A stretch of 64,000 bases of DNA from a virus, in IMG/VR virus record IMGVR_UViG_3300042890_004841, positions 1-64,000 of that record, one strand, 5' to 3'. Positions 8,579 through 55,588 of this stretch are shown piece by piece. The notes under the pieces were generated by a model. It was not told the DNA's origin. It worked only from the letters and a program-made list of their open reading frames with translations, and did no database searches. How positions within the stretch are numbered: the stretch's first letter is position 1; the number at the start of each line of letters is the position of its first letter. The position numbers and the translations under genes are program-made.

Positions 8579-8587
8579 CCCTACAGG

Positions 8588-37568: not shown

Positions 37569-37570
37569 TT

Positions 37571-37789: not shown

Positions 37790-37797
37790 CGAAATAC

Positions 37798-37826
37798 TTG
37801 ACAACAATTTTTTAATATTTTATAAT
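37798..37826 (+). promoter_or_regulatory. Sigma70-type promoter at head of main LRW array
   Basis: TTGACA (37798-37803), 17-nt A/T spacer, TATAAT (37821-37826). The last promoter I can find before 45.5 kb, so it may drive a transcript of over 7 kb. Confidence 0.82.
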
Positions 37827-37838
37827 AGGAATGAATAA

Positions 37839-38181: not shown

Positions 38182-38183
38182 CC

Positions 38184-38638: not shown

Positions 38639-38639
38639 T

Positions 38640-39818: not shown

Positions 39819-40072
39819 CATATGATCTTGTGATCAGTCAAGAAGGGCCAGACGCTCATCCTTTATACAGTGCCGTTAAGCACAGCATTGAATGGATAGG
39901 AAAAAAGCATCAAGTCAATAGTCCTATGGATTTGAAATATTTGACTGAAGAAGAATTTGATATTAGAATTGAAGCAGTGGGATATCTAACTAATACATCA
40001 GGTAATTATAGATATAGGGTAAGTTTCCGTGATGAACGACATTATACTTGGTTTATATTGAGGTGGTCATGA
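39815..40072 (+). CDS. LRW-array gene 10 (85 aa)
   Basis: MTYDLVISQEGPDAHPLY, helix VKHSIEWIGKKHQ, strands, end RHYTWFILRWS. Start in the junction ATGA. Its own last 15 bases are TTGAGGTGGTCATGA. Confidence 0.72.
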   Translation: MTYDLVISQEGPDAHPLYSAVKHSIEWIGKKHQVNSPMDLKYLTEEEFDIRIEAVGYLTNTSGNYRYRVSFRDERHYTWFILRWS

Positions 40073-40296
40073 TTGGTTTTTATTTAGAAAATTTTCTAAT
40101 AAATTGTCCCATATATTGGCAAAACTTTGTAAAGGCCAATCAGGATAATCCTGATCATGATACAGCATTAAGAATACTTAATAGAAAACTTAAGCCTTTT
40201 AAAGCAAGATATGTTCCCGCAAACTTTTGTGACCCCGATAAAGTTGTATTTGAAGATGAGCATAGCTTAAATTGGTTTATATTGAGGTGGTCATAA
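40069..40296 (+). CDS. LRW-array gene 11 (75 aa)
   Basis: MIGFYLENFLINCPIYW, helix DTALRILNRKLKPF, strand KVVFEDEH, end SLNWFILRWS. The junction to the next gene is a variant: TTGAGGTGGTCATAATG, so the stop is TAA and the next ATG overlaps it by one base. Confidence 0.72.
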   Translation: MIGFYLENFLINCPIYWQNFVKANQDNPDHDTALRILNRKLKPFKARYVPANFCDPDKVVFEDEHSLNWFILRWS

Positions 40297-40487
40297 TGGG
40301 GATGGGGTATCCTGTAACTGTTGCATGTAGTAATATCATGGAAGTATCTGAACGACTAGAATGGGCAGAAAAACATGGTATAAAACTACTGAATCGCACT
40401 TGGGTAGTTATCAATGAACGACAACATGTATCATTCTTTTTTGAAAAAGAAAAGGATGCTACAATTTTTGCACTGAGGTGGTCATGA
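40296..40487 (+). CDS. LRW-array gene 12 (63 aa)
   Basis: MGMGYPVTVACSN, helix VSERLEWAEKHGI, strand VSFFFEKE, end KDATIFALRWS. ATG 40302 (MGYPV) is an alternative start. Perfect junction at the end (40473-40487). Confidence 0.72.
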   Translation: MGMGYPVTVACSNIMEVSERLEWAEKHGIKLLNRTWVVINERQHVSFFFEKEKDATIFALRWS

Positions 40488-40696
40488 CCAAATTGCCCGA
40501 CTACCCTTATCTTCAAAATATCGTATCTTATTATCGTAAGATGACCGATAACTCGAATGGACCTTTATATCATGATGATTACATTACCTATCTAAAATCA
40601 TTTGGATTTCGAGTTCCAATAGAATTTGGTACTCTTGAATTTCCTGATGATTTTTCAGAAAAGGATTTAATGATGTTCATATTGAGGTGGTCATGA
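40484..40696 (+). CDS. LRW-array gene 13 (70 aa)
   Basis: MTKLPDYPYLQNIVSYYRK, helix YHDDYITYLKSFG, strand LEFPDDFS, end EKDLMMFILRWS. Its last 15 bases are TTGAGGTGGTCATGA (40682-40696), but the ATG there opens only a 6-codon frame before gene 14. Confidence 0.7.
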   Translation: MTKLPDYPYLQNIVSYYRKMTDNSNGPLYHDDYITYLKSFGFRVPIEFGTLEFPDDFSEKDLMMFILRWS

Positions 40697-40713
40697 GCAA
40701 AGTGTTTGCATGA
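40693..40713 (+). CDS. Six-codon leader ORF between array genes 13 and 14
   Basis: The junction ATG (40693) opens MSKVFA and then stops at TGA (40711-40713), overlapping the ATGATG start of gene 14. It probably keeps ribosomes coupled across a junction that lost its original gene start. It may be a remnant. Confidence 0.45.
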   Translation: MSKVFA

Positions 40714-40919
40714 TGAGACCACAAGATTTTGAACATCGTATAGAAATTGAACCTATATTGACTAAAAGTCATGAAGATGCTATACATGAATGGTGTAGGC
40801 GACATTTAGGTAGATACGGTGAAACTTGGTATACCTATTACAGCCAACAAAGTCATAAAATCATAGTATGTTTTCAGCATAGCCAAGATGCTGTTTGGTT
40901 TACTTTGAGATGGGCATAA
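40710..40919 (+). CDS. LRW-array gene 14 (69 aa)
   Basis: MMRPQDFEHRIEIEPIL, helix HEDAIHEWCRRHLGRYG, strand IIVCFQHS, end QDAVWFTLRWA. Start at the ATGATGA overlap with a 6-codon leader. The ending DNA is the variant TTGAGATGGGCATAATG. Confidence 0.72.
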   Translation: MMRPQDFEHRIEIEPILTKSHEDAIHEWCRRHLGRYGETWYTYYSQQSHKIIVCFQHSQDAVWFTLRWA

Positions 40920-41116
40920 TGTATACTCTTAACTTAGCTGAATTACCCGCTACCAAGTCTGTAGAATTTTTAGTATGGGTTTTTACTAATCAAATTGGAA
41001 ATTATATGTCTCTGCTAGAATTAATAACCAAAGACATTAATTGGCATTATAAAACAAGTATTCCTTTTGAATGCTCTGAACAAGAAGCAATATTGGTAAT
41101 TTTGAGGTGGGCATGA
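40919..41116 (+). CDS. LRW-array gene 15 (65 aa)
   Basis: MYTLNLAELPATKSVEFLVW, strand SIPFECSEQ, end EAILVILRWA. The last bases TTGAGGTGGGCATGA (41102-41116) keep the overlap function while coding Ala instead of Ser. Confidence 0.7.
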   Translation: MYTLNLAELPATKSVEFLVWVFTNQIGNYMSLLELITKDINWHYKTSIPFECSEQEAILVILRWA

Positions 41117-41364
41117 AGCCAAGTGAATTACTGACCATAGCAGAAAAATATTGGCTTACAGACTATGATCATAAAAAGCCTCTATCACCAAATACTCCCT
41201 TTGTCACCGGTGTGGCCCGTACTGATGCTATATTACATGACATGCTGATTAAACATGGTGTAGAACTGATATTGAAACAGAGTGGACATAGAAATTGGCA
41301 ATTGGCTGATTACCGTGTAGTTGATGACAAAAAGTTTATGTGGTTCCTAATGAGGTGGTCATAA
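41113..41364 (+). CDS. LRW-array gene 16 (83 aa)
   Basis: MKPSELLTIAEKYWLTDYD, helix ILHDMLIKHGVELI, strand and end KKFMWFLMRWS. Methionine replaces Leu before RW; the DNA reads ATGAGGTGGTCATAATG, still holding GAGGTGG. Confidence 0.7.
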   Translation: MKPSELLTIAEKYWLTDYDHKKPLSPNTPFVTGVARTDAILHDMLIKHGVELILKQSGHRNWQLADYRVVDDKKFMWFLMRWS

Positions 41365-41621
41365 TGACATATATAGATAATCCTAACATTTGGTATAATC
41401 TACAAATACATTTTAAAAATAATATCATGCCCGTCTTGGAGAATGATGATCAAGTTTGGGCGACAGCATTTAGGCGTTGGCTAAAAGAACAAGGTGCTGA
41501 CATTGCGCAAGCACAGAACATACGCTACTTGCGTAATAGTTTACAAATAGCACCTCAATTTGATCAATTGGTATTTGAAAATGATAGAGATGCTACGATG
41601 TTTTTATTGAGGTGGTCGTGA
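41364..41621 (+). CDS. LRW-array gene 17 (85 aa)
   Basis: MTYIDNPNIWYNLQIHFKNN, helix WATAFRRWLKEQGADI, strand QLVFENDR, end DATMFLLRWS. A close paralogue of the gene at 43987 over its whole length. Junction is TTGAGGTGGTCGTGATGG, an unusual variant where TGATG is the overlap. Confidence 0.73.
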   Translation: MTYIDNPNIWYNLQIHFKNNIMPVLENDDQVWATAFRRWLKEQGADIAQAQNIRYLRNSLQIAPQFDQLVFENDRDATMFLLRWS

Positions 41622-41830
41622 TGGCTCTACATACAGTTGTTTATCATAGACTTGAACCTGGTATGTTGGCAGGACATATTCGCAGTCTATTAGACTATAA
41701 TGTAGATCGTTGGTTGGAAGAAAATTGTCAGGGACGCTATTATCACAATCCTGGTTGGACAGATACAAAGTATATTCAATTCGAAGATAGCAGAGATGCC
41801 ATGTGGTTTGCCTTGAGGTATGGACGATGA
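41621..41830 (+). CDS. LRW-array gene 18 (69 aa)
   Basis: MALHTVVYHRLEPGMLAGH, helix NVDRWLEENCQGRY, strand YIQFEDSR, end DAMWFALRYGR. The C-terminus has RYGR rather than RWS, and the junction DNA is TTGAGGTATGGACGATGA. Confidence 0.72.
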   Translation: MALHTVVYHRLEPGMLAGHIRSLLDYNVDRWLEENCQGRYYHNPGWTDTKYIQFEDSRDAMWFALRYGR

Positions 41831-42057
41831 ATAGATTGGTTTGTTTACCTGCTGATTGGGGGCCTGTGCAAAAAGCTGCTGTTTGGTTAAGGGAACATTT
41901 GGACATACCTGATTATGAAACAATAGAAAGTCAATTTGAAGAATATTTTAATTGTAAGGTTATAAGGGATCCACCACATGATGTAGTCTATGGTAAAATA
42001 TATGCTGTATTTGAGTGTGAGCAAGATGCTAATTGGTTTATATTGAGGTGGTCATGA
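41827..42057 (+). CDS. LRW-array gene 19 (76 aa)
   Basis: MNRLVCLPADWGPVQKAAVW, helix AAVWLREHLDIPD, strand IYAVFECEQ, end DANWFILRWS. Perfect junction at its end (42043-42057). Confidence 0.72.
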   Translation: MNRLVCLPADWGPVQKAAVWLREHLDIPDYETIESQFEEYFNCKVIRDPPHDVVYGKIYAVFECEQDANWFILRWS

Positions 42058-42398
42058 AAATACAGCGAATACAGAAATTTGAAGATGGTCAAAAGATATA
42101 TGTGTTAGGCTCGGTTACTACACTTTCATTTCGTCAATATATGGATCAATACTCAGATTCAACTGTATGGAGTAGAGAACATCAGGCACATCATGCTATT
42201 AAACGACTCATAAAACTAGAATACAGTGAATTATATCAATGGTTATGCAGTCAAGATTGTCAAACAACCAATTGGATTGATGATAGAATATTTTCACTAC
42301 CATATCAATTCAGTGCTCAAATCAATTTATTTGATTGGGGTATAGGGTTCAGGTCAAATGATCCCAAAGAAACTTTGTTTATATTGAAGTGGCAATGA
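42054..42398 (+). CDS. LRW-array gene 20, longer form (114 aa)
   Basis: Extra N-terminal part (MKIQRIQKFEDGQKIYVLGS, TVWSREHQAHHAIKRLIK), then helix YSELYQWLCSQD, strands, and the end DPKETLFILKWQ. Lys replaces Arg; the DNA TTGAAGTGGCAATGA has a weaker site for the next gene. Confidence 0.7.
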   Translation: MKIQRIQKFEDGQKIYVLGSVTTLSFRQYMDQYSDSTVWSREHQAHHAIKRLIKLEYSELYQWLCSQDCQTTNWIDDRIFSLPYQFSAQINLFDWGIGFRSNDPKETLFILKWQ

Positions 42399-42634
42399 AT
42401 TATAATAGTAAATTTGATCAATATCATATGAAAATTACTGATAATTATATTACGGTAAATCGTAATAAACTCGATATTGTTGAAGCTATAAAGTGGGTTA
42501 AAAAGAATTGCCCACACTATATAACAAATCAATATCACGGTAATTATCATGGCAATGATCTTATTGATTTCTTTTTTTTAGACAAGCCAAAAGCTAAAGA
42601 AGAGATGACAATGTTTATTTTAAAATGGGCATAA
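42395..42634 (+). CDS. LRW-array gene 21 (79 aa)
   Basis: MNYNSKFDQYHMKITDNY, helix IVEAIKWVKKNCP, strand LIDFFFLDK, end EEMTMFILKWA. Start in the ATGA overlap; ends with AAATGGGCATAATG. Confidence 0.7.
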   Translation: MNYNSKFDQYHMKITDNYITVNRNKLDIVEAIKWVKKNCPHYITNQYHGNYHGNDLIDFFFLDKPKAKEEMTMFILKWA

Positions 42635-42882
42635 TGATTAATTTTGATAGTCCATTTAAAAAAGAATGGGAAGAACAATTAAAATGGTTGGATGAAACTA
42701 TACAAAGAAATTATACCAATGATGGTAGACCATTCAATAAAAGTACAGTGGCTCAATTTTTAGAATGGCGCAGTATGGATAAAGAAACATGGAAGTTTAG
42801 AATACAAGGATTGCCTCCTACACTTATAGTTACTTTTAAAGACCCTGAACATGAATTCTTATATAATTTAAGATGGAGATAA
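42634..42882 (+). CDS. LRW-array gene 22 (82 aa)
   Basis: MINFDSPFKKEWEEQLKWLD, helix STVAQFLEWRSMD, strand LIVTFKDPE, end HEFLYNLRWR. The coding DNA for RWR (AGATGGAGATAA) supplies GGAG for the TTG start that follows. Confidence 0.7.
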   Translation: MINFDSPFKKEWEEQLKWLDETIQRNYTNDGRPFNKSTVAQFLEWRSMDKETWKFRIQGLPPTLIVTFKDPEHEFLYNLRWR

Positions 42883-42883
42883 A

Positions 42884-43105
42884 TTGGCTATTGATGTAAT
42901 CATTGAAGGAAAAGAGTTATCACAATATATTGACATTGTGCGTGAACTACGTGCCTCAGGATTAAATCAAGGAGAACATTTTGATTTTAAATACATTCCA
43001 TCAGTATATGATTACGAAAAATATAGAATTACTCCAAAAAAAGTTATCTTTACATTTTATGATGAACAATACTCTACATTATTTCGTTTAAAATATGAAT
43101 CCTAA
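42884..43105 (+). CDS. LRW-array gene 23, TTG start (73 aa)
   Basis: TTG at 42884 with GGAG 5 nt upstream; no in-frame ATG is near. MAIDVIIEGKELSQYIDIV, then VIFTFYDEQ and the end YSTLFRLKYES. A diverged member with KY for RW. Overlaps the next gene by 11 bases. Confidence 0.62.
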   Translation: MAIDVIIEGKELSQYIDIVRELRASGLNQGEHFDFKYIPSVYDYEKYRITPKKVIFTFYDEQYSTLFRLKYES

Positions 43106-43280
43106 ATATCCGTATATTGCATCTATTTGTCCTCCTGATGGTGGTAAACGTGGTTGGTATGATGTAATATCGTGGTGCCATGAAAAGATAGGTGCCACAC
43201 ATTCTCAATATGTAGGTGAAGGTGTTTTTGCATTTGAAAATGAAAGTGATTATATGATGTTTATATTGAGGTGGACATAG
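43095..43280 (+). CDS. LRW-array gene 24 (61 aa)
   Basis: MNPKYPYIASICPPDGGKR, helix YDVISWCHEKIGA, strand GVFAFENES, end DYMMFILRWT. Almost the minimal full family unit. Ends TTGAGGTGGACATAG, with the stop before the next start. Confidence 0.74.
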   Translation: MNPKYPYIASICPPDGGKRGWYDVISWCHEKIGATHSQYVGEGVFAFENESDYMMFILRWT

Positions 43281-43281
43281 A

Positions 43282-43521
43282 TTGAATACTAAGGAATGTC
43301 AATGTTTTGAATGTCTCAAACCAAATTTTACCAAGTTTGTCAGCACCTTTATCGTATGTGACACCTGTGGTAACAAACGTTGCCCACACGCTACTGATCA
43401 TAGATTAGGATGCACCAACAGCAATGACCCAGGACAACTTGGCAGCAGATACGGTGTCTACCCACACCCATCTATAGAGTTATTAGATTTTTTGGATGCT
43501 GCCAATGAAGATAAAGAATAA
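43282..43521 (+). CDS. Cys-rich zinc-binding phage protein within the array (79 aa)
   Basis: TTG start with GAGGTGG of the previous gene 8 nt upstream. Contains CQCFEC, CDTCGNKRCPHATDH and CTNSNDPGQLGS. The NKRCPxAxxHxxxCTxSNxPGQxGS pattern is common in phage proteins. Probably binds zinc. It is not an LRW member but uses the same junction signal, so foreign genes can sit in the array. Confidence 0.72.
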   Translation: MNTKECQCFECLKPNFTKFVSTFIVCDTCGNKRCPHATDHRLGCTNSNDPGQLGSRYGVYPHPSIELLDFLDAANEDKE

Positions 43522-43738
43522 TCATTTACCACGTAATGGAGAATATGAAATATTTACTACCCAAGGACGCACTTATTGTTTTGATGATCCATCGTTAGAA
43601 GTCATGCAAGCACCTAATGAAATGTTTGAATGGTTAAGAAATATGCCAAGAGAACTATGTAGACCACTAGATCATACTAATGTTGCATTTTATCTAACTC
43701 CTGAAATGTATACCTTGTGGAAAATTACTTGGTTATGA
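43505..43738 (+). CDS. LRW-array gene 25 (77 aa)
   Basis: MKIKNNHLPRNGEYEIFTTQ; ATG 43496 is an alternative start. Helix NEMFEWLRNMPREL, strand VAFYLTPE, end MYTLWKITWL. Diverged ending. Overlaps the zinc protein by 17 bases. Confidence 0.62.
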   Translation: MKIKNNHLPRNGEYEIFTTQGRTYCFDDPSLEVMQAPNEMFEWLRNMPRELCRPLDHTNVAFYLTPEMYTLWKITWL

Positions 43739-43742
43739 TATA

Positions 43743-43952
43743 ATGATGAGAAGACTTAAAAAAGAAATTTGGCCTTATAAAATTACAGTGAATTATCCTG
43801 CTGATTCTCAAATTATTGATATTGAATTATGGTTAATTGAAAAGTTTGGTGAAAGAAGAAATAAGTGGAATGTAGTTTATGGTTTTTATAAGTCTGATTT
43901 TTACTTTAAAGAAGAATCTATGCTAACATTTTTTGCAATGCGATGGAACTAA
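43743..43952 (+). CDS. LRW-array gene 26 (69 aa)
   Basis: MMRRLKKEIWPYKITVNYP, helix IDIELWLIEKFGERR, strand DFYFKEES, end MLTFFAMRWN. Its ending codons include the ATG of the minigene that follows (overlap of 10 bases). Confidence 0.68.
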   Translation: MMRRLKKEIWPYKITVNYPADSQIIDIELWLIEKFGERRNKWNVVYGFYKSDFYFKEESMLTFFAMRWN

Positions 43953-43990
43953 CATATAGTCAAATAGTATCTTATTTGAGGTGGTCATGA
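43943..43990 (+). CDS. 15-codon minigene ending in LRWS
   Basis: MELTYSQIVSYLRWS, then TGA. The ATG lies inside gene 26 and the last 15 bases are the full junction TTGAGGTGGTCATGA. It seems to be a collapsed family member retaining only the start and the junction, so that ribosomes can reach gene 27. Confidence 0.55.
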   Translation: MELTYSQIVSYLRWS

Positions 43991-44244
43991 AATATATACA
44001 GGATTCTGACCTGTGGTATACACTACAGGTATATTTTAAAAATAATATCATGCCCAACTTGGTGAATGATGATAAAGTTTGGGCACATGAATTTAGACGA
44101 TGGCTTAAAGAACAAGGTGCTGAAATTGAGCATTTAATGAACCAACGATTAGTGCGTAATAGTTTAGGTATAGCACCCCACTATGATAAATTGGTCTTTG
44201 AGGATGAACAAAGGTTAGCTTGGTTTGTGTTGAGGTGGTCATAA
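43987..44244 (+). CDS. LRW-array gene 27 (85 aa)
   Basis: MKYIQDSDLWYTLQVYFKNN, helix WAHEFRRWLKEQGAEI, strand KLVFEDEQ, end RLAWFVLRWS. Close paralogue of gene 17 with the same length. Ends TTGAGGTGGTCATAA without an ATG at the expected spot. Confidence 0.73.
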   Translation: MKYIQDSDLWYTLQVYFKNNIMPNLVNDDKVWAHEFRRWLKEQGAEIEHLMNQRLVRNSLGIAPHYDKLVFEDEQRLAWFVLRWS

Positions 44245-44290
44245 AATTAAAAAATTAATTAAAATTAACGGTAAACACTATAATGACTAC

Positions 44291-44617
44291 ATGCCATGTG
44301 GCTTAAACATTATAGAAAAACTTTGGTGGTGGTTGGTTCCAGGTGTTCTTGTCAAAGTAAAATGGCCCAAGGGTATGATCACAGTAGATCATAATGACCC
44401 ACGTTGGTTTGATTGTGGTGGTGCAGTATGGGTAACCTACGAAAGCACTGATCCTAATGATCATTATCGCCCATGGATGGAAGCAAATATTGGTAAACAA
44501 AAGTGGGATTGGGATTGGGGATTTGTAGGCAATGATGTTTCAGATAACTGTTTAACCATTAAAGTTAGACAAAATAAGGCAGAGTATGCTACAATGATGA
44601 TTATGATGTGGGGATAG
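44291..44617 (+). CDS. LRW-array gene 28 (108 aa or longer)
   Basis: ATG 44291 gives MPCGLNIIEKLWWWLVPG. The same frame is open upstream to about 44234 and reads KKLIKINGKHYNDY, which looks like real protein; an ATT at 44246 lies 7 nt after the GAGGTGG of the upstream junction and could be a rare start. Contains DPNDHYRPWMEANIGKQKWD; ends EYATMMIMMWG, a worn family ending. Confidence 0.6.
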   Translation: MPCGLNIIEKLWWWLVPGVLVKVKWPKGMITVDHNDPRWFDCGGAVWVTYESTDPNDHYRPWMEANIGKQKWDWDWGFVGNDVSDNCLTIKVRQNKAEYATMMIMMWG

Positions 44618-44618
44618 T

Positions 44619-44993
44619 ATGCGAATAAAACCTTTTCAATCACGATATGCAGTAACTTGGGATGAATATCCTACAGGTATTTCCAACCCTAATGGTAAAG
44701 TGAAGATGGTAAATTGGTGTATCAAAAACTTAAAATTAGATTATATTACTTTGGGGTTTTACGCATATGACCCAAATGGGTTTTACGAACATAATCCACC
44801 AAATGCTGTAAATTCTTGGATGTTAATTAATTTATCAAATGATATTTTGATAACAACAGAAGACGATGTTCATTTAAAATTATTAGACCATGGATCACTA
44901 AAAGCAATCATACTTGATGATTACAGCAAAGCATGCGAATTAGCAGATTATGTTGATCAAATTCATACATTTAATATAATTAAAAGATACTGA
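44619..44993 (+). CDS. Array-associated protein, diverged (124 aa)
   Basis: MRIKPFQSRYAVTWDEYP, helix KVKMVNWCIKNLKL that fits the family, strands with WMLINLSND and then DDVHLKLLDHG where the family ending would be, followed by a further ~30 residues. Perhaps a member with a C-terminal extension, so the LRW end was lost. Confidence 0.6.
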   Translation: MRIKPFQSRYAVTWDEYPTGISNPNGKVKMVNWCIKNLKLDYITLGFYAYDPNGFYEHNPPNAVNSWMLINLSNDILITTEDDVHLKLLDHGSLKAIILDDYSKACELADYVDQIHTFNIIKRY

Positions 44994-44994
44994 C

Positions 44995-45186
44995 ATGAGA
45001 ACCGCACTTTTTCAGCGTGAATTCACCGTAAAGGAGGTAGGTCCTATTAGTGATTTTTTAAAACAATGTAGGAAAATGATGGGACAACCTTCACCTCAAA
45101 CATGGGTGTTTCATGGAAATTATCATAAAATTGTTTTATATATTTATGACGATAAGTATGCCACATGGTTTAGTTTAAGGTATTGA
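44995..45186 (+). CDS. LRW-array gene 29 (63 aa)
   Basis: MRTALFQREFTVKEVG, helix ISDFLKQCRKMMGQ, strand IVLYIYDDK, end YATWFSLRY. Last clear family member. Short N-terminus and the full layout. 1 base after the upstream stop. Confidence 0.68.
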   Translation: MRTALFQREFTVKEVGPISDFLKQCRKMMGQPSPQTWVFHGNYHKIVLYIYDDKYATWFSLRY

Positions 45187-46131: not shown

Positions 46132-46818
46132 ATGTTTTCACAATCAATTACATACCCAACAGCTAGTGAAATTAATTCAGCAATGGCAGGTGTGTATAAA
46201 AATATGTCACTTGCTGTATTAGTTAGTATGCTTGTTTCATATTATGTAGGTACTACCCCTGCATTGCTTCAGTTCTTTTTTACAGGTTTTGTCAAGTGGA
46301 TTGTTATTTTTGCACCATTAGTTGCAGTGTTTGCTGTGACCTATGGATTATCACAAGTACAATCTAAAGAAGTTGCATTATTGATGCTATTAGGTTTTGC
46401 TGCACTAATGGGTTTAAGTTTTGCTACAATCTTTGCAGTATACCAAATGGGTAGTATCTTTACTGCATTTATGGGTGCAGCAGTTTTATTTGGAACGATG
46501 AGTTTTTATGGTTACTTTACTAAAAAGAATCTTGATAGTATTGGTAAGTTTCTGTTTGTTGGGCTTATTGCTATTGTTATCGCCTCTATTATTAATATCT
46601 TTATTGGTAGCAGTGTTGCTGCTATGGTTATTAGTGCACTTGCTATTATTATTTTTCTTGGTTTAACTGCGTATGACACACAGAAAATTCGTGAAATGAT
46701 TATGGAAGAAGGTGCAACTGCTAGAGTAGAATCATTAGGTGCGTTAACACTTTACCTTGATTTTATCAATATTTTCTTGAACTTATTACAGTTGTTTGGT
46801 TTGAAGAAAGACGATTAA
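46132..46818 (+). CDS. Bax inhibitor-1 (BI-1/YccA) family membrane protein
   Basis: 228 residues with six to seven hydrophobic helices. The BI-1 pattern ending AYDTQKIREM (about 182-191) and GALTLYLDFINIFLNLLQL (about 204-222) is clear. Bacterial members (YccA, YetJ) are pH-gated Ca2+ leak channels or FtsH protease inhibitors. As YccA inhibits FtsH, a phage copy could protect phage proteins or the membrane state. AAAAGGAG 6 nt upstream. Its 3' end overlaps a convergent gene by 53 bases. Confidence 0.87.
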   Translation: MFSQSITYPTASEINSAMAGVYKNMSLAVLVSMLVSYYVGTTPALLQFFFTGFVKWIVIFAPLVAVFAVTYGLSQVQSKEVALLMLLGFAALMGLSFATIFAVYQMGSIFTAFMGAAVLFGTMSFYGYFTKKNLDSIGKFLFVGLIAIVIASIINIFIGSSVAAMVISALAIIIFLGLTAYDTQKIREMIMEEGATARVESLGALTLYLDFINIFLNLLQLFGLKKDD

Positions 46819-47443
46819 CAAAGTCTAATAGCAGCATATGGTGCCTACCATGGTGCCAATGCTGCTTTATATATTTGTACTTATTGTACCAAAACTTCTC
46901 ACTTTCAGGGTGGCATCCAATAATACCTATGTTGTTTTGTATAATTGCCATAGGATCATTATTAGAATATCGTGCGATTACTTTAAACTTACGTTCATTA
47001 CCAATCAATGAACACCCATCATAAAAAAACATTTCTTCTTCATCATGCAACCATTGCACATTAGCAACTGTAGCATATGATCGTTTAATATCAGTGTCAG
47101 GTCGCTTAATATATTGCACAGCCTCTACACTTTTAAGTATGTTAAAGTAATAATGTGATGCCCAATATGCACCCATACAAATACCCAAGTAGTAACCACC
47201 ATTGGTTACAAAGTTTTGTATGGATTGTATAGTTTCTTGTGAGAAGAATTTGTAGAATTTGTCACTGCTACCAATGCCACCTGGGAAAGCTAGGATATCA
47301 GCTTTAGATAATACTTTGTTTATATTGTCTTGTTCAGACCAAATAGTTATTTTGTAGGATTGCTGCAAGGCATTGATCATACCATTGCAGCACCATATTG
47401 AGCATTCAGGATCGTGTTGAAATAATGCTATACTTTTTTTCAC
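46766..47443 (-). CDS. Class I glutamine-amidotransferase-like protein (BPL_N family)
   Basis: 225 residues. The nucleophile elbow is GICMGAYW with C89; PGGIGSS (54-60) forms the oxyanion part, and GCHPESEKFW follows the triad histidine position. This fits the BPL_N family (like the N-terminus of eukaryotic biotin protein ligase), which has no firm role. It is the last gene of the minus-strand phosphate-related block, overlapping the gene before it by 4 bases. Confidence 0.75.
   Translation of the reverse strand: MKKSIALFQHDPECSIWCCNGMINALQQSYKITIWSEQDNINKVLSKADILAFPGGIGSSDKFYKFFSQETIQSIQNFVTNGGYYLGICMGAYWASHYYFNILKSVEAVQYIKRPDTDIKRSYATVANVQWLHDEEEMFFYDGCSLIGNERKFKVIARYSNNDPMAIIQNNIGIIGCHPESEKFWYNKYKYIKQHWHHGRHHMLLLDFVNRLSSNQTTVISSRKY
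46830..46866 (+). other. Hairpin just after the BI-1 gene
   Basis: AGCAGCAT (46830-46837) pairs with ATGCTGCT (46859-46866), with an inner ATGGT/ACCAT stem. It lies inside the end of the convergent gene. It may end transcription of the BI-1 mRNA, though only TTATATATTTG follows. Confidence 0.35.
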
Positions 47444-47628
47444 ATTGGGTCAGCATCAGGAAAGTCATGACTTGAACCTGCTGATTGAACGTGCATATCA
47501 ACAAAATCGTATTGTGAAAGTGTATAAATTAGGCTTTTAACAGTTTCAAGTGTTTCAAGTTGGTCTATTGATTCACTGTTTAATTCAACCTTAATGTCTA
47601 AACCATTGATTGTCATTTCTAATTTCAT
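47440..47628 (-). CDS. Hypothetical protein (62 aa)
   Basis: MKLEMTINGLDIKVELNSES, helix IDQLETLETVKSLIYTLSQY. Strand-strand-helix layout, AAGGAT site upstream on the - strand. Part of the minus-strand operon between the zinc-ribbon gene and the amidotransferase-like gene. Not recognised. Confidence 0.62.
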   Translation of the reverse strand: MKLEMTINGLDIKVELNSESIDQLETLETVKSLIYTLSQYDFVDMHVQSAGSSHDFPDADPM

Positions 47629-47655
47629 GGTAAAATCCTTATAATATTCTAATAT

Positions 47656-47871
47656 TTATTCTAATTTACCACCACAGTGTGGGCATTTTTTAGTGTCATT
47701 AATATGTTCTTGTAAAACTTTTTCCCATTCTTTTATTTCACGTATAATACCTTTTAATGTTCTACGACAACGTATAGGTTTATCTTTTTCTAATTCACCC
47801 TTTAAACGTTTACGCAACATGTGAACTCGCTGTTCAAAAACCCCTAAAAATCCACCTGTTGAATCGCCCAT
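47656..47871 (-). CDS. Small basic zinc-ribbon-ended protein (71 aa)
   Basis: Helical and basic, with CPHCGG near the end; a single Cys pair, so zinc would need a partner or dimer. The upstream glycosyltransferase ends GAG GTA TAA, which acts as this gene's GAGG site directly before ATG. Not recognised. Confidence 0.62.
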   Translation of the reverse strand: MGDSTGGFLGVFEQRVHMLRKRLKGELEKDKPIRCRRTLKGIIREIKEWEKVLQEHINDTKKCPHCGGKLE

Positions 47872-48867
47872 TTATACCTCAGTTAAGTTATTTTTAAATA
47901 TATTCCAAGCTTCTTCCCAACTATAACTTAGGCTTTCAAGCTCTACATTTTGTCTATTTAATGTTAAACATTCTGTTATAGATAATTTTAAATTTTCTCG
48001 TAAGTATCCTGTAACACCATGTTTTACAACGTCTAGTGGTCCTTGACATGGATATGCTGCGACAGGTGTACCACATGCCATGGCTTCAATCATTACAATA
48101 CCAAATGTTTCCCAACGACTAGGAAATACAAATACATCAGCATTAGCGTAATATGTTGCTAAATCTGCCCCTGTTTTGAAACCTACAAATTCTACATCGG
48201 GATATTTTTGTTCTAATTCTGCACGATAGGGTCCATCTCCGACTAGTATTTTTTTTGCATGGAAATAGTTTAATGAACAAAAATCATCTAAATTTTTTTC
48301 TTTACTTATTCTACTTACACACAATAAATTAAGTTGATCATTTGTTTTTGTTCTTAAAGTTGATTTAAATATGGATCTATCAACTCCTCTAGTCCATGGT
48401 ATAATATCACTTTTTAGACCTTTTTCTTTAAGTTGTTTTACCATAGACTCTGTAGTAGTTAAAACTTTTCCTGTATGTTTATGAAACCATTTTATGTATT
48501 TCCAAGTAATTGATTCGGGTAGTCCTAAAAGAGTTTTAAGTCCTTCAGGAAATTTAGTATGATAAGCAGTATTGTACCTAAAATCATGTTTTGTAAGATA
48601 TGCTCTAGCCCACAGACCCACAGGACCCTCTGTTGCGATATGGATATGATTCGGATTGATCTCCTCAATCTTCTCGCCCATCTGCCTTGGTAAGGCAATC
48701 TTGACTTCGTTATATAGAGGGCAATCAATGTAGCTGAACTCATCGGGAGTAATATAAACAAAATGATAACCATCCCGAATCGCATACGTTTCAATATTTT
48801 TGTAAGTGGTAACAACCCCATTAATTTGATCATGTAAATTATCTGTTACTATTAGTATTTTTTTCAC
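47872..48867 (-). CDS. agt: GT4 glycosyltransferase, Agt-like (glycolipid synthesis)
   Basis: 331 residues from a GTG. N-terminal Rossmann half: KKILIVTDNLHDQINGVVTT, HIATEGPVGLWAR, YHTKFPEG. C-terminal half: SRISKEKNL, VGDGP (209-213) and the GT4 E-x7-E motif with E253 and E261 (WETFGIVMIEAMACGTPVA). The pattern agrees with the glycosyltransferases next to plcP in bacteria (Agt), which add a sugar to diacylglycerol under phosphate starvation; mannosyltransferases of the same clade look alike. It overlaps the small membrane gene that separates it from the PlcP-like gene. Confidence 0.82.
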   Translation of the reverse strand: MKKILIVTDNLHDQINGVVTTYKNIETYAIRDGYHFVYITPDEFSYIDCPLYNEVKIALPRQMGEKIEEINPNHIHIATEGPVGLWARAYLTKHDFRYNTAYHTKFPEGLKTLLGLPESITWKYIKWFHKHTGKVLTTTESMVKQLKEKGLKSDIIPWTRGVDRSIFKSTLRTKTNDQLNLLCVSRISKEKNLDDFCSLNYFHAKKILVGDGPYRAELEQKYPDVEFVGFKTGADLATYYANADVFVFPSRWETFGIVMIEAMACGTPVAAYPCQGPLDVVKHGVTGYLRENLKLSITECLTLNRQNVELESLSYSWEEAWNIFKNNLTEV

Positions 48868-49024
48868 ATTTTCCCTCTACTTTAAACCACGGAAATTTAA
48901 CCCAATGTGCCATTGTTTGTAATGCGTGTTCACAACTAGCTTGATCTTTAAATTGAAGCTGTATGCGGCCTGGGATATCGGTTGGATCATACGTATTAAC
49001 TACTATCAGAAATAACATCCACAT
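48839..49024 (-). CDS. Small membrane-anchored protein (61 aa) between plcP-like and agt-like genes
   Basis: ATG at 49024 with AAAGGA upstream; begins MWMLFLIVVNTYDPTDIPG, a short hydrophobic start that could be a signal. The rest contains QFKDQASCEHALQTMA and a second Cys (EGKCEK). Overlaps both neighbours by about 29 bases, so the three are translationally linked. Not recognised. Confidence 0.62.
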   Translation of the reverse strand: MWMLFLIVVNTYDPTDIPGRIQLQFKDQASCEHALQTMAHWVKFPWFKVEGKCEKNTNSNR

Positions 49025-49772
49025 AATCGTCCTTTGTATAGGGCCAATAAACAATTTCCCATTTTCCATCATCGTGTTCGACTAACGCAGTGCAACTTTC
49101 TACCCAATCACCATCGTTCATATATATTATTCCGTTAATGTCTTTGATTTCTGCGTGATGGATATGACCACAAATAACTCCATGATACCCACGCTTAGAA
49201 CAATAAATAGCCAAATTATTCTCAAATCTAAAGATAAAATCCACTGCTCGTTTGACTCTGCGTTTAAGATATTGACTAAGACTCCAATAACCGAACCCAA
49301 AACGGTGCCTAATACGATTAAATGTGGTATTAAGAGATAAAACAATGTCATAAGCTTTGTCACCTAAAAAACTTATCCATGGTGCTAATCTTGTTATGCC
49401 ATCAAATAAATCACCATGTATAACCAAGTATTTTTTACCATCAATACCAATATGTTCAATTTGATTACATATTTTTATTCTCCCAAAATTTAAACCATAT
49501 GGAATTAGTGGTCGTAAAAATTCATCATGATTACCTGATATGTAATATACTTGTGAACCACGCTTAGCATGGCCTAAAATTCTTCGAATGACATTAGTAT
49601 GTGATTGTTTCCAAAACCATTTATTTTGCTGTATTTTCCATCCATCTATAATGTCACCAATAAGATAGATATATTCAGCAGAATTATTTTTTAAAAAACT
49701 AGATAAATTGTCTGCTTTACAACCTTTGCTTCCTAAATGAGTATCACTAATAAATATAGATCTATATTTCAT
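48996..49772 (-). CDS. plcP: PlcP-like phospholipase C-type metallophosphoesterase
   Basis: 258 residues. Calcineurin-type blocks: D10-T-H12 (ISDTHLGS), G39-D40 (IGDIIDGW), G80-NHDE84, H119 (IHGD) and G202-H-I-H205. The long ending MNDGDWVESCTALVEHDDG matches LpxH-like proteins of the PlcP group. In bacteria PlcP removes the head group of phospholipids to leave diacylglycerol when phosphate is short. The Agt-like partner next to it and the pstS and phoX genes upstream make PlcP more likely than LpxH. No Shine-Dalgarno just before its ATG; a hairpin sits there. Confidence 0.83.
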   Translation of the reverse strand: MKYRSIFISDTHLGSKGCKADNLSSFLKNNSAEYIYLIGDIIDGWKIQQNKWFWKQSHTNVIRRILGHAKRGSQVYYISGNHDEFLRPLIPYGLNFGRIKICNQIEHIGIDGKKYLVIHGDLFDGITRLAPWISFLGDKAYDIVLSLNTTFNRIRHRFGFGYWSLSQYLKRRVKRAVDFIFRFENNLAIYCSKRGYHGVICGHIHHAEIKDINGIIYMNDGDWVESCTALVEHDDGKWEIVYWPYTKDDYVDVISDSS

Positions 49773-49777
49773 AAAAA

Positions 49778-49813
49778 AATAACTATAGAAAGTTTCGGCT
49801 CCCTATAGTTATT
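49778..49813 (-). terminator. Hairpin with T run between pstS and plcP
   Basis: AATAACTATAG (49778-49788) pairs exactly with CTATAGTTATT (49803-49813), 14-nt loop. On the - strand the stem is followed by TTTTTT and at once by the plcP ATG. It may end most pstS transcripts or regulate plcP; the loop holds GGGAG. Confidence 0.7.
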
Positions 49814-49848
49814 TACAAATTTAAACTGATTTATATATTACAGTTGTA

Positions 49849-50856
49849 TTACTTAATTTGACTCCATACTTTTGTACGTATGTCGTTTTGTAGTTTATCA
49901 GGTAAGTGTACATAGTCAAGTTCTTCACTTAATTTCTTACCATTTTTAAATGCCCAATCAAAAAACTTTAATACGTCTTGACTTGCTTTTTTGTCTGCAG
50001 GATCTTTATACATAATAATAAAGCTTGCTGTTGTGACAGGCCAAGTATCCTTGCCACCCTGATTTACAATACTCAGGCCCATTCCTGGAACTGAGAACCA
50101 ATCTGCCCCCGCTGCGGCTGCTGCGAAAGTTGTATCATCAGGGTCAACAAAGTTACCTGCCTTGTTTTGTAGTTTCATATAATTCATGTTATTTTTCTTA
50201 ACATAAGCATATTCAACATATCCGATTGCACCTTTTACTCTATTTACATTGGCAGCAACACCCTCATTACCTTTTCCACCAACTGAAGAATTTGCTGGCC
50301 ACTTAACGGCTGAACCTTTGCCTACTTTTTCTTTCCATGCAGGACTTACTTCAGTAAGATAATCTGTCCAATTAAAGGTGGTACCACTACCATCAGCACG
50401 ATGTACTACGGTAATATTTAAATCAGGTAATTTTTTACCTTGATTTAATGCACTGATTTTTGGATCGTTCCATTTCGTGATATCCCCCATAAAAATTTCT
50501 GCAAGGATAGGTCCTGTGATGCGAAGTTCACCTGCTTTAAACCCTTCAAGATTGATAACAGGTACTGTACCACCAATGATAACAGGGAATTGAATTTGTC
50601 CATTTTTATCTAAATCCTCACCTTTAACGGGTGCATCTGTTGCACCAAATGTAACAGTTTTTGAATTAATTTGGCGAATACCACCTGAACTACCTATACT
50701 TTGATAGTTTAGTTGTATACCACTTACTTTGTTATAGGCTTCTGCCCATTTTGCATAGATAGGATAAGGGAATGTTGCCCCTGCTCCTGTGATAGTTTGT
50801 GCATTGACGCTCAAACTAATTGTTACTGCTGCTATAAAACTTAAAATTTTCTTCAT
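49849..50856 (-). CDS. pstS: PstS, periplasmic phosphate-binding protein
   Basis: 335 residues. Signal MKKILSFIAAVTISLSVNA, cut before QT. Phosphate-site blocks: GAGATFPYPIYAKWAEAY, SIGSSGGIRQI, FGATDAPV and RADGSGTTFNWTDYL. It hands phosphate to the host PstCAB transporter, which the phage does not encode here. PstS is a known extra gene of marine phages. AAAGGA upstream; 17 bases after phoX in the same operon. Confidence 0.96.
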   Translation of the reverse strand: MKKILSFIAAVTISLSVNAQTITGAGATFPYPIYAKWAEAYNKVSGIQLNYQSIGSSGGIRQINSKTVTFGATDAPVKGEDLDKNGQIQFPVIIGGTVPVINLEGFKAGELRITGPILAEIFMGDITKWNDPKISALNQGKKLPDLNITVVHRADGSGTTFNWTDYLTEVSPAWKEKVGKGSAVKWPANSSVGGKGNEGVAANVNRVKGAIGYVEYAYVKKNNMNYMKLQNKAGNFVDPDDTTFAAAAAGADWFSVPGMGLSIVNQGGKDTWPVTTASFIIMYKDPADKKASQDVLKFFDWAFKNGKKLSEELDYVHLPDKLQNDIRTKVWSQIK

Positions 50857-50873
50857 TTATATTCCTTTTAAAA

Positions 50874-53078
50874 TTAATAACCAATAATTCCACCATCTTT
50901 TCTTGTAATAACAAGAGTTGCGCTACGTGGGCGACCTGTTACTCCATACCCTGCATTTCCAGGCCACTGACTTTGTGGAGCTGATCCTGTCCAAAATGAC
51001 GCAGTAGTGTCCTCGCCAGGATGTTGAACGTTAACAAAAATTGTACGACCATCAGCAGACTCAGCGATTCCTGTTATCTCACAACCTGCAGGACCTGTCA
51101 AGAATCTACGCAATTTAGTTTCACCTAATTCTGCACCTACAAAGGTGTTTTGATCTTTTGTTGCCCCACTTAATGTATTAGTAATTGTTACAGATTTACC
51201 ATCACCGACTTGGCCTGGGATGGCGACAAGCAGTTGATTATGTACTTCATCTGTGTAGGCACCATCATCCGTTTGAATCCAACAAAGTCCTGTAGCTTTA
51301 CTGAACCATAAACCATCAGGGCTACTGAATGAATTTTTAGCTGTTAATTTACTAACATTACTTGCAGTATTATCTTCTTCTGATCCAAACAAGAAAATAT
51401 CCCATACAAAACGTGAAGTTTCTTCACGAAAACGAATTATATGTCCATTAGGATTACCTGAGCCTTTTTTACCATCGGGATCAGCATATGAACGAGGATT
51501 TGCAGCATCTGTAGTGTTTGGCGTGCGATTTGAAGAGTTATTATTTGTTAGAGCAAAATAAATCTCACCATTAGATGGATTTACTGCACCCCATTCAGGA
51601 CGATCCATTTTTGTTGCACCAACTGCATCTGCTGCAATTCTTGTAAAGACATAAATTTCAGCTTGATTATTAAATTTAAATGTTGAGTAATTTGCAATGG
51701 CAGGATTAGAAATACTTAATTCCAACCAAACACCTGTCCCATCTGAATTAAATTTGGCAACAAATAATTTTCCATCATTCATATATTTGTCACCTGCAGC
51801 AATTCCACCACCAAAATCAGCAGGATCCCAAGTTTTTGTACTAACCCATTTGTAAATATATTCATTACGACTATCGCAACCCATATAAAAAGTTACAGGC
51901 TTTCCTGCTTCTAATTTACCATAGACACAAGCTTCATGTGCAGTACGCCCTAAAGCGATTCTTTTTACAGGTTGACTATTAGGTTGGGTAGGGTCAATTT
52001 CAATAATATACCCAAATGTATGTGGTTCATTACGAAAATCATCTTTGCCTGTAACACCTTTTACACTAACATCCCAACGACTAAATCTAAATTCAGTATC
52101 AGGCATATCTGTTACAGTATGCCAACCTTGTGTATTAGCTGAAGTTGCTGTTGCAGAAAGAGCAGCGTTACGAACTCCATAACGAGCACGAGTTTGTACT
52201 ATACGTGCATCAGGAGCTACACTACCCTTTGGCATTGAAAAATATGTTGCCCAATTTTCTTCACAAGTTAAAAATGTTCCCCATGGTGTATAACCTGTAC
52301 CACAATTGTTTAATGTACCACGACTTGTAGCACCTGTAGGATCATATTTGGTCTGTAACAATGTTCTGATATTTGCTAATTCATTTGCAGGACCACTAAT
52401 TTTCATTACAGTTTGTGGTGTAATTCTTCGATTATAATTACTATCAAGTTTATATGTCCACCCGCTTGAGCCTTTATTAATTTCTACAATACTTACACCA
52501 TGGTGGTTAATTTCTTTTAATGATTCTAAACCAAGACGAGAACCCAAGTCCCATTCACCAAATTGGTCATATTTTTTACCACTTACCCCATTACTTGTTT
52601 GTCCATTTGGGTGAAAAAAGTGTGCATCTGATGAACTTTCATGATTCATACAAAGAAGTGCACGATCAGTATAATTTTTTGTATATTTACCATTACTATC
52701 TAAGTGAAATAATTCTACTCCATCGTGATGATCACCTACACGTTTAGACCAATCATCTGTCTCCAATCCTTTATTGCTATAAGCTGCAATAGAACTACTC
52801 ATACGGTCACCCGTAGCATGCAATATTGAATATTGATAGCCTTCGGGTAACGTAACTTTATCTAAAATATTTTTCGGTACTGCATCAAACGACAATGACG
52901 TTGGTAAGTTAATACCATCATCTGTTGATGCACATGATGCCAAAGATGCACCTACCGCAGTTGTAAAAAACGCAGACCCTGTTTTAATGAATGATCTACG
53001 TGATTGATTTCCTAAAGATTCCTTAATAATATCATCTAAATGTTTGTTACTAGATGGGTTTTCATTTTCTATAAACAT
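50874..53078 (-). CDS. phoX: PhoX-type alkaline phosphatase
   Basis: 734 residues. A Tat signal SRRSFIK (26-32) is followed by a hydrophobic stretch and LASC (46-49), a possible lipobox. PhoX blocks: MNHES, GTGYTPWGTFLTCEENW, ARIAADAVGATKMDRPEW-like segment (TRIAADAVGATKMDRPEWGA), PDGLWFSKATGLCWIQTDDG and PGEDTTASFW. PhoX is a Ca2+/Fe-dependent phosphatase exported folded by Tat, releasing phosphate from organic esters. First gene of the minus-strand phosphate operon with AAGGAG upstream. Confidence 0.93.
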   Translation of the reverse strand: MFIENENPSSNKHLDDIIKESLGNQSRRSFIKTGSAFFTTAVGASLASCASTDDGINLPTSLSFDAVPKNILDKVTLPEGYQYSILHATGDRMSSSIAAYSNKGLETDDWSKRVGDHHDGVELFHLDSNGKYTKNYTDRALLCMNHESSSDAHFFHPNGQTSNGVSGKKYDQFGEWDLGSRLGLESLKEINHHGVSIVEINKGSSGWTYKLDSNYNRRITPQTVMKISGPANELANIRTLLQTKYDPTGATSRGTLNNCGTGYTPWGTFLTCEENWATYFSMPKGSVAPDARIVQTRARYGVRNAALSATATSANTQGWHTVTDMPDTEFRFSRWDVSVKGVTGKDDFRNEPHTFGYIIEIDPTQPNSQPVKRIALGRTAHEACVYGKLEAGKPVTFYMGCDSRNEYIYKWVSTKTWDPADFGGGIAAGDKYMNDGKLFVAKFNSDGTGVWLELSISNPAIANYSTFKFNNQAEIYVFTRIAADAVGATKMDRPEWGAVNPSNGEIYFALTNNNSSNRTPNTTDAANPRSYADPDGKKGSGNPNGHIIRFREETSRFVWDIFLFGSEEDNTASNVSKLTAKNSFSSPDGLWFSKATGLCWIQTDDGAYTDEVHNQLLVAIPGQVGDGKSVTITNTLSGATKDQNTFVGAELGETKLRRFLTGPAGCEITGIAESADGRTIFVNVQHPGEDTTASFWTGSAPQSQWPGNAGYGVTGRPRSATLVITRKDGGIIGY

Positions 53079-53128
53079 GTAATTTGGCTCCTTAATAAAA
53101 CATATTTACAAAAATAGTAGCATATAAT

Positions 53129-53146
53129 TATTACAGAATTATTACA
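53129..53146 (-). promoter_or_regulatory. Pho-box-like direct repeat upstream of phoX
   Basis: On the - strand TGTAATA-ATTC-TGTAATA: two 7-nt repeats with an 11-nt period, the layout of PhoB sites. A TACTAT (-10-like) follows after 9 nt, in the direction of phoX. Confidence 0.6.
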
Positions 53147-53165
53147 ATTTTAAAATTAGGATAGG

Positions 53166-53358: not shown

Positions 53359-54840
53359 CTATTTTACATTGCACATTAAATTAATATAATCTTTATGATC
53401 AAGAACCATTAAATATTGTAATTGCATAGCAGCATTAGCACGATCTGCAACAACTTTGTTATAATTCTCTCTATTTTTTTCAAATAAATTTTCTAAACTT
53501 TGTAAATTAATTAGGTTTAAACCTAGATAAATTTGGTAAAAATTAACAGCATAAAACATTAGATAACGGTTAGGAAAATATGACCAATGAAAATGCCCCT
53601 GCTGAAATTGGCTAATCGTAGCTTGATTAAAAGGTGTTAATTCAAATGGTCTATCTTTCCAAAATTCTGTATCATCTCGATTAACAAAATAATGAGCTTG
53701 TATATAACTTATAATATTGTCAAACGATTCAGAAAAAGTAGCGTTATACAAATTTTCAACAATTTGATTATTAACTAACCATCCTTCTAGCATATCACTT
53801 AAGCCGTTTGCTTGTAATATAGTAAAACCAATACTTTGCGCTTCTAAAGGTTCTGCAAAACTACCTGCTAAACCAATACTTATACAGTTTTTAGACCAAA
53901 ATTTTTCTAACCTTCCCGCTGTGAATGGAATATCCTTGCCAACTTTTTCTACTTTTTTCTTTAATGACTTAGATAATTCGTTTAACGCTTCGTCAGCAGT
54001 AATATAGTTAGTATTAAAAACGTAACCATTTCCATAACGTTCTTGTGTGGGTATTTTCCATGCCCATCCTGCACTTAATGCGGTGGCGGTGGTATATGGC
54101 TCGTAATTTTGATTTTTCTTAAACTCCGTAGGAAAAGCAATAGCTCGATTCATAGGCAAATATCGCTCATAACTTATCCATTTATTGTCTAATTCTTTAC
54201 TGATTATACGATTCATACCGCTACAATCAACGAAAAAATCTCCACTTAATGTACTTTTATCTTCAAATTTTAGTGAACTAACATTGCCAAAATGATCTAA
54301 ATCAACACTTTCTACATCATTTTCTAAAAAGGTAATTTGTCTTTCCATACATTTTTTAGTTAAAAACTCATTTAACGCAAACGTATCAAAATGGTACTGA
54401 TTACCTACTAACAAGTTATTGTGTACAATTACCTTATGTTCACGGAAAATGTGAAATCCTGGCGAGACAGGAAACGGTGAATCCCTGTTGTTTAATGCTA
54501 AAAAGTTGTAGATATCCATACGGTTAAGACCTGAAAATTCCGCACCTCCGCCTACATTGTGACAATATTCGTGACCTTTTCTTAACCAATCTTTAAATAA
54601 AATACCAATTTTTACGGTAGCTTTGGTTTCTTTTATCAGTTCATTTACGCTGATATTCACCAAATTCATAAAACCATTCCAATGTTCAGTACTACCCTCC
54701 CCTACACCGATAATACCAATTTTTGATGATTTCACAATTGTAATATTAATATGAGCAAATTTTTCACGCATAATTAGTGCAGTTACCAAACCTGCTGTAC
54801 CTGCACCAACTATAACCATCTTGTTGATGTTAGCGATCAT
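53359..54840 (-). CDS. Flavin-dependent (tryptophan-type) halogenase
   Basis: 493 residues. FAD motif G12-A-G-T-A-G17, IGVGEGSTEHW, active-site lysine K77 (TVKIGILF) and the W-x-W-x-I-P motif as GWAWKIP (about residues 260). The K and WxWxIP together define flavin-dependent halogenases. A cyanophage enzyme of this class is known to halogenate in vitro; the natural substrate here is unknown. It overlaps the oxygenase gene by 4 bases (ATGA), so both products are probably made together. Confidence 0.88.
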   Translation of the reverse strand: MIANINKMVIVGAGTAGLVTALIMREKFAHINITIVKSSKIGIIGVGEGSTEHWNGFMNLVNISVNELIKETKATVKIGILFKDWLRKGHEYCHNVGGGAEFSGLNRMDIYNFLALNNRDSPFPVSPGFHIFREHKVIVHNNLLVGNQYHFDTFALNEFLTKKCMERQITFLENDVESVDLDHFGNVSSLKFEDKSTLSGDFFVDCSGMNRIISKELDNKWISYERYLPMNRAIAFPTEFKKNQNYEPYTTATALSAGWAWKIPTQERYGNGYVFNTNYITADEALNELSKSLKKKVEKVGKDIPFTAGRLEKFWSKNCISIGLAGSFAEPLEAQSIGFTILQANGLSDMLEGWLVNNQIVENLYNATFSESFDNIISYIQAHYFVNRDDTEFWKDRPFELTPFNQATISQFQQGHFHWSYFPNRYLMFYAVNFYQIYLGLNLINLQSLENLFEKNRENYNKVVADRANAAMQLQYLMVLDHKDYINLMCNVK

Positions 54841-55517
54841 AGATCAACCTTCTTAACCCGTTCAATAGGACTAGCACTATTAGTTTCAAACTTTTTAACA
54901 AAAAATACTTGTGTCAATCTTGGATCACCGCTTGTATACAAACTTTGTGCTGCATGATAACTCTCACCATCAATTAATATTAACCTATTGTATACATTGT
55001 GAACACGTGTTACTTCAGTAAACATACCATTAGACTTTTCAAAAATAGTGTCATAATTTTTGTCTTTGCCATTTTTATATAAATTTTCTTTTGCTTTTCT
55101 ACCTGTTTTAAAGATATAGTCTTGATTAAAGTTTTTATTAGTATGATAAACACTAGTACCTGTGTTTAACTCATTATCAGGGTTGAGGTAGATAATACCT
55201 GCGTAAATCATATCATCTTTATGAATCCAACCCTTGTTTTTATTTGAATTAGGATCATCAGAGTAAGGTTCAATCTTTTGAAAGTAACTTAATACATCTA
55301 GTGATACAGTATGAAAGTTAGTATCATAAAAAATGTTTATAAGTTTAAGACAGAATTTCTGAAAAAATTCACCATCAAGTTCGTTTAGTAAGGCACTCCG
55401 TACCCCAGGCCACTCTCCCCTATCATTTGGTCCGTACTCACAAGCTAATGCCATTTCACGAACTTTATCGGGATTGTTGTAAAAATTGTCCATGACTAAT
55501 GTTGGAAAATATACCAT
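54837..55517 (-). CDS. 2OG-Fe(II) oxygenase partner of the halogenase (DUF6445-like)
   Basis: 226 residues from MVYFPTLVMDNFYNNPDKVR, with AAAAGGA upstream; a longer frame lacks a site. Fe(II) ligands H99-x-D101 (WIHKDD) and H188 (ESYHAAQS); R200 (DPRLTQ) for 2-oxoglutarate. Directly upstream of the halogenase gene. The pair may modify one substrate in two steps or act on structural proteins encoded beside them. Confidence 0.78.
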   Translation of the reverse strand: MVYFPTLVMDNFYNNPDKVREMALACEYGPNDRGEWPGVRSALLNELDGEFFQKFCLKLINIFYDTNFHTVSLDVLSYFQKIEPYSDDPNSNKNKGWIHKDDMIYAGIIYLNPDNELNTGTSVYHTNKNFNQDYIFKTGRKAKENLYKNGKDKNYDTIFEKSNGMFTEVTRVHNVYNRLILIDGESYHAAQSLYTSGDPRLTQVFFVKKFETNSASPIERVKKVDL

Positions 55518-55588
55518 AATTATCCTTTTCGTATCAAAATAATATACTAATTTATACCCATTTGTGACGGACAATATATTTTTTCAAC

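Follow-up and report, generated by a model that had tools for sequence, protein, structure and literature searches.

The 64,000-nucleotide stretch analysed here (the window), positions 1 to 64,000 of the 94,048-bp IMG/VR virus record IMGVR_UViG_3300042890_004841, carries a phage operon which quite likely combines the scavenging of external phosphate with the release of phosphate from membrane lipids, and which is probably switched by PhoB under phosphate starvation. The operon runs on the minus strand from 53078 to 46766 and encodes, in 5′ to 3′ order, phoX, pstS, plcP, a small protein, a family 4 glycosyltransferase (GT4), two small open reading frames (ORFs) and a BPL_N/amidotransferase-like gene. 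An earlier note, made from the sequence of the window, had named the genes of this set and had read them as phosphate scavenging joined to lipid remodelling. Family models and ORF reading place the named genes at the same positions, on the same strand and in the same order. The interpretation is largely supported as far as sequence comparison reaches, by protein models for phoX and pstS and by trees for the pair of plcP and the agt-like gene.

We propose the following course of events. In a phosphate-starved cell, the host PhoB would bind the predicted promoter and switch the operon on. PhoX, exported by twin-arginine translocation and probably lipid-anchored, would cut phosphate from dissolved organic phosphate outside the cytoplasm, and PstS would hand it to the host Pst transporter. 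At the inner membrane PlcP, to judge from its descent, would convert phospholipids to diacylglycerol and a phospho-alcohol. The Agt-like GT4 would then cap the diacylglycerol with a sugar, keeping the membrane intact, and the freed lipid phosphate would be a net gain that could be used for phage DNA. This purpose is suggested by the company which plcP and GT4 keep with phoX and pstS, while the enzyme steps are suggested by descent. For bacteria, it has been shown that plcP-agt remodels lipids (PMC4796936, PMC8528852, PMC8231724).

The two scavenging genes could be assigned with family models. PhoX (50874..53078, minus strand, as are all genes of the operon) is an alkaline phosphatase matching PF05787 with an E value of 4e-122 (409 bits, Pfam cut-off 24). 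It has a twin-arginine signal (SRRSFIK) followed by a lipobox-like LASC, and both motifs are preserved in the aligned viral homologues. The phosphate-binding protein PstS (49849..50856) has a Sec-type signal, passes the equivalog cut-off of NF008171 (393 vs 339 bits) and matches phrog_5385. A signal peptide is absent from both PlcP and GT4. From plcP to the 3′ end of the operon, adjacent ORFs overlap or almost touch. The genes are under purifying selection, the ratio of nonsynonymous to synonymous substitution rates (dN/dS) being 0.06-0.19 for phoX, pstS, plcP, GT4, the 71-aa ORF and the last gene.

A PlcP relative is encoded on 386 viral stretches, of which the best 80 were read. The contigs compared are kin of the query and partly of one another, so that the locus counts given here do not represent independent events. 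A near-identical operon is found in a virus contig of 137,959 bp (L007), with identities of 83% for PhoX, 89% for PstS, 95% for PlcP and 97% for GT4, and phoX heads such a gene set in ten distinct viral loci. As the arrangement recurs in this way, it is far beyond chance. The carrier is an aquatic virus of bacteria. Among the related long contigs, 12 of 22 bear a terminase and 8 of 22 a T4-type Gp23, which identifies the DNA as that of a phage, and the window encodes a phage-type DNA polymerase and DNA ligase. Terminase and Gp23 were not found in the 94,048-bp record itself, which is probably a fragment. The operon or its core is seen again in long contigs bearing terminase or Gp23, and contamination of the record by host DNA was rejected on this ground.

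By descent, the phosphoesterase encoded at 48996..49772 is a PlcP of the bacterial type, a predicted phospholipase C-type enzyme of calcineurin fold, as indicated by tree position, LpxH score and metal motifs. It is about 50-60% identical to bacterial PlcP. In a PlcP/LpxH tree of 124 sequences it belongs to a viral clade of 30 rows (100/95), within which one sequence from a metagenome-assembled genome stands on a long branch, and the nearest neighbours of this clade, Hyphomonadaceae-type sequences and phage Mosig, all lie inside PlcP. The LpxH sequences form a group of their own, divided from PlcP at 100/100 by very long branches. It could be argued that the protein is instead an LpxH-type lipid A enzyme and GT4 a lipopolysaccharide (LPS) sugar transferase, the pair modifying host LPS: the closest solved structures are those of LpxH, and public phage records call relatives UDP-2,3-diacylglucosamine hydrolase. 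The calcineurin-type fold and the metal motifs are common to both enzymes, and DxH, GD, GNH, HGD and GHxH are invariant in the PlcP alignment. However, the identity to the solved LpxH structures is about 20%, and the phage protein reaches 35.5 bits with the LpxH equivalog model, which has a cut-off of 190. In seven plcP-bearing genomes, this model gave 232-298 bits for true LpxH and 34-53 bits for the PlcP proteins, which came up as weaker second matches. An identity as LpxH was rejected on score and tree split. With GT4 placed in the Agt clade (see below), modification of LPS is highly improbable, and at the level of sequence the tree refutes it. The earlier note had itself named a grouping with LpxH and LPS mannosyltransferases as the outcome that would speak against it, and the trees of both proteins point to the PlcP and Agt clades. 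The structure model of PlcP is only moderate (confidence score pLDDT 79, with a poor helical insert) and we thus make no claim about the substrate pocket.

The glycosyltransferase (47872..48867) matches PF13692/PF00534 with an E value of about 1e-25 and is modelled with a GT-B fold (pLDDT 93). When it was compared to eight named genomes, six of them yielded full-length matches to the Agt proteins, with E values of 4e-67 to 6e-83; the remaining GT4 proteins of those genomes matched over partial length at about 1e-7 to 1e-11. The identity to bacterial Agt is about 40%. In the tree, the viral GT4 proteins are sister to SAR11 Agt (100/97), within the clade of plcP-linked bacterial Agt, which agrees with the proposal of an Agt-like enzyme rather than one of the LPS mannosyltransferase type. 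A GT4 of LPS type or from a conflict system was rejected by this tree position, and PADLOC gave no match for the tested proteins. The sister position to SAR11 is evidence on the origin of the gene, not on the host. Characterised members of the bacterial Agt clade produce glucosyl- and glucuronosyl-diacylglycerol (PMC4796936, PMC8231724, PMC8528852); the product of the phage enzyme may be a different one. In two SAR11 genomes (L093, L095), the GT4 which follows plcP has a Cys at the position of the catalytic His104 of the SAR11 enzyme GTcp and is otherwise typical.

Linkage of the two genes is nearly strict. For 76 viral GT4 loci, retrieved via GT4 alone and not via plcP, plcP is found upstream on the same strand in 75 cases, and the remaining contig has just 69 bp at this side. 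The earlier note had put forward a look through viral contigs for this pairing as a check, and its outcome was positive. In bacteria, a GT4 homologue lies downstream of plcP, mostly directly, in 62 of 80 loci. A second set comprises the plcP loci, 76 in all, in which the sequence extends far enough beyond the gene (from 73 viral contigs and three public phage records). Here GT4 follows in 32 loci and a family 2 glycosyltransferase (GT2) of unrelated fold in 39 (e.g. the short GT2 in L052, L027, L046 and L073), while both never occur together, so that 71 of 76 have one of the two. This interchange of two unrelated transferases downstream of plcP is, among the evidence from gene position, the strongest sign that both act on the product of PlcP. 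The phage GT2 is best matched by generic GT2 models, with GT21 also above its Pfam cut-off, and its position suggests a role in lipid modification. It was sought beside bacterial plcP and in the phage collection, and was found in neither. A fatty acid desaturase homologue is located near plcP in five loci; that of L052 scores above the cut-off of the DesA family.

Upstream of phoX, the window contains the Pho-box-like repeat TTGTAAT-AATT-CTGTAAT with a period of 11 bp (53130..53147, minus strand), which reads TTGTAATAATTCTGTAAT; no other site in the window matches this type perfectly. The repeat is followed after 10 bp by an extended -10 element, TGCTACTAT (53114..53122, minus strand), about 35 bp before phoX. 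This is the layout of a PhoB-type promoter, in which a TGTNAY repeat of 11-bp period precedes the -10 by about 10 bp. The block of box and -10 is retained before phoX in ten distinct relatives despite differing upstream genes, with TGnTAnnAT preserved across the aligned relatives. Boxes of the form TGT[AC]A[CT]-N5-TGT[AC]A[CT], their letters varying (TGTAAT, TGTAAC, TGTCAC), are present in 24 of 28 phoX/pstS upstream regions of relatives, but in none of the 28 on the opposite strand and in 0.05% of shuffles. Of 109 loci, 36 also have such a box in the 200 bp that precede plcP. Among 75 distinct boxes in viral loci, automatic assignment places 33 before plcP, 11 before pstS and 10 before phoX. 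The motif is found at a single place in the window, and its copies in relatives mostly stand in front of phoX, pstS or plcP, which makes a general phage promoter an unlikely alternative to a Pho box. Control by the host PhoB, which probably binds here, fits these predicted boxes, and cyanophage genes have been found to be under host PhoB (PMC10976474). In one locus (L238, 6993-7953), GT4 is followed by a further phosphoesterase of calcineurin type, which likewise has a Pho-box-like site in front of it.

Several points weigh against an operon for phosphate supply. Predicted Pho boxes have proven an unreliable guide to PhoB binding in a cyanophage, and the authors warn against relying on prediction alone (PMC10976474). 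PlcP releases a phospho-alcohol and not phosphate, so that further host enzymes are needed to finish the reaction. In some phages (L004, L006, L076), plcP is accompanied by neither of the two transferases. Finally, the position of Asp256 in GTcp is occupied by Glu in all 74 readable viral GT4 sequences (Glu253 in the window) and by Asp in 57 of 58 bacterial ones. In GTcp, exchange of Asp256 for Glu abolished more than 90% of the activity. Sugar donor, acceptor or rate of the phage enzyme may thus differ from those of GTcp. As the catalytic Asp is replaced, we name the protein Agt-like and not Agt.

This replacement, with less than 10% of activity retained by the GTcp variant, is also what speaks for a GT4 that has shifted to another acceptor or donor (LPS, protein), leaving plcP alone to serve phosphate release. 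The strict linkage to plcP argues against such a shift. The other essential residues of GTcp are conserved in the viral proteins (the glycine and His positions being taken from the alignment), including T162, R163 and W320, which are the predicted diacylglycerol-binding residues. Moreover, other GT4 enzymes, MshA among them, usually have Glu at this position (PMC8231724). We regard a shifted GT4 as unlikely. The replacement is fixed and selection on GT4 is purifying (dN/dS 0.09-0.19), so that the Glu has the look of a functional adjustment and not of decay.

Another explanation is that the pair makes a sugar lipid for its own sake and not for phosphate, the altered membrane shielding the infected cell, for instance from early lysis, grazers, a host defence or a second phage. 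Both the Glu found in GT4 and the exchange with GT2 suggest that the sugar itself may matter, a desaturase is found near some plcP copies, and in marine bacteria the composition of the lipids influences grazing as well as the attachment of phages (PMC9938194, PMC9457565). However, the Pho-box-like sites before plcP, pstS and phoX, and an operon shared with two phosphate-scavenging genes, point to phosphate, and the lack of a PADLOC match for the tested proteins does not favour a defence role. We consider protection of the membrane to be quite unlikely as the main purpose and prefer phosphate supply.

The bacterial PlcP-Agt operon (SAR11 HTCC7211, Erythrobacter, P. aeruginosa PA3219-PA3218) resembles the phage version in having plcP followed by an Agt-clade GT4 on one strand and a Pho-box-type promoter. 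The phage version differs by lying in one operon with phoX and pstS, by an extra small protein between plcP and GT4, and by Glu for Asp256 and Trp for the preceding Thr in GT4. With the phosphate genes of cyanophages (pstS, phoA; host PhoBR) it shares pstS, a phosphatase and Pho-box-type control. In contrast to these, the phosphatase is PhoX, and plcP and a glycosyltransferase are added, which makes the host membrane a possible phosphate source. For PhoX, no clear phage record was found in the phage collection, the two matches both being from one unusual Acinetobacter assembly. The isolated Pelagibacter phage Mosig EXVC030M (L004) has a 51% identical PlcP beside pstS. There, plcP and pstS are arranged back to back (6897-8732), so that plcP is divergent from pstS, it has no adjoining GT4 or GT2, and it is annotated as UDP-2,3-diacylglucosamine hydrolase. 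HTCC1062, the SAR11 host of Mosig, has been reported to lack plcP (PMC4796936). The combination had been thought to be undescribed as a phage system and, in line with this, no description of a phage or viral plcP-agt module, or of glycolipid or lipid-remodelling auxiliary genes, was found in open PubMed Central (PMC) papers.

To our knowledge, the phosphate genes described from phages all act on phosphate from outside the cell. The operon would extend phage phosphate acquisition to membrane lipid: the membrane of the cell itself becomes a possible source, and genes, control element and an exchange of partners can now be named. An E. coli cell has about 2e7 phospholipids, and a 150-kb genome contains about 3e5 phosphates. 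Lipid phosphate could thus cover tens of phage genomes, which is an estimate from general figures and not a result. Somewhat tentatively, we suggest that many aquatic phages carry a PhoB-controlled remodelling kit, consisting of plcP, one of two unrelated and mutually exclusive transferases (GT4 or GT2) and sometimes a desaturase. With such a kit, they might dictate the lipid composition of infected cells, perhaps including sugar head groups foreign to the host, and might do so even in hosts without the pathway, as with Mosig and HTCC1062. Infection may add to the glycolipids in phosphate-poor waters. In addition, genes listed as lpxH among viral auxiliary genes (e.g. in PMC9611531) may be plcP.

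The remaining genes of the operon are less well defined. The small protein between plcP and GT4 (48839..49024, about 61 aa) is probably secreted or membrane-bound and has a hydrophobic N-terminus and two conserved Cys. Its ORF opens at 49072, but 49024 is the likely start because homologues begin at MW. It is present at 44 of 83 plcP loci and at 39 of 76 GT4 loci. Downstream of GT4, the earlier note had counted three further small genes. There are indeed three, but the last one is not really small. The first is a 71-aa ORF (47656..47871) with a C-terminal CPHCG knuckle-like motif, conserved in 10 of 83 loci (dN/dS 0.06-0.17). The second, of 62 aa (47440..47628), is without family match, and its relatives also occur directly before plcP in other phages. 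The third codes for a BPL_N/class I amidotransferase-like protein of 225 aa (46766..47443; PF09825, 2e-12), with homologues in 23 of 83 loci, often near viral plcP.

A BI-1/YccA-like membrane protein is encoded on the plus strand at 46132-46818, converging into the end of the operon, and is 98% identical in L007. Directly upstream of the operon and on the same strand are a tryptophan-halogenase family gene and a DUF6445 gene (53359-55574, minus strand). At 37162-45186 (plus strand), there is a tandem array of more than 20 short ORFs which differ in sequence except for an FxLRW-type tail in each. Many of these overlap the next one via a shared DNA stretch; 12 such ORFs are present in L007 and none clearly in L024. 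At about 57-64 kb of the window, and running on into L002, there are long ORFs made up of repeats such as TGTLTTNAQPNITSVGTLTSLSVTGN, perhaps those of a tail fibre or adhesin.

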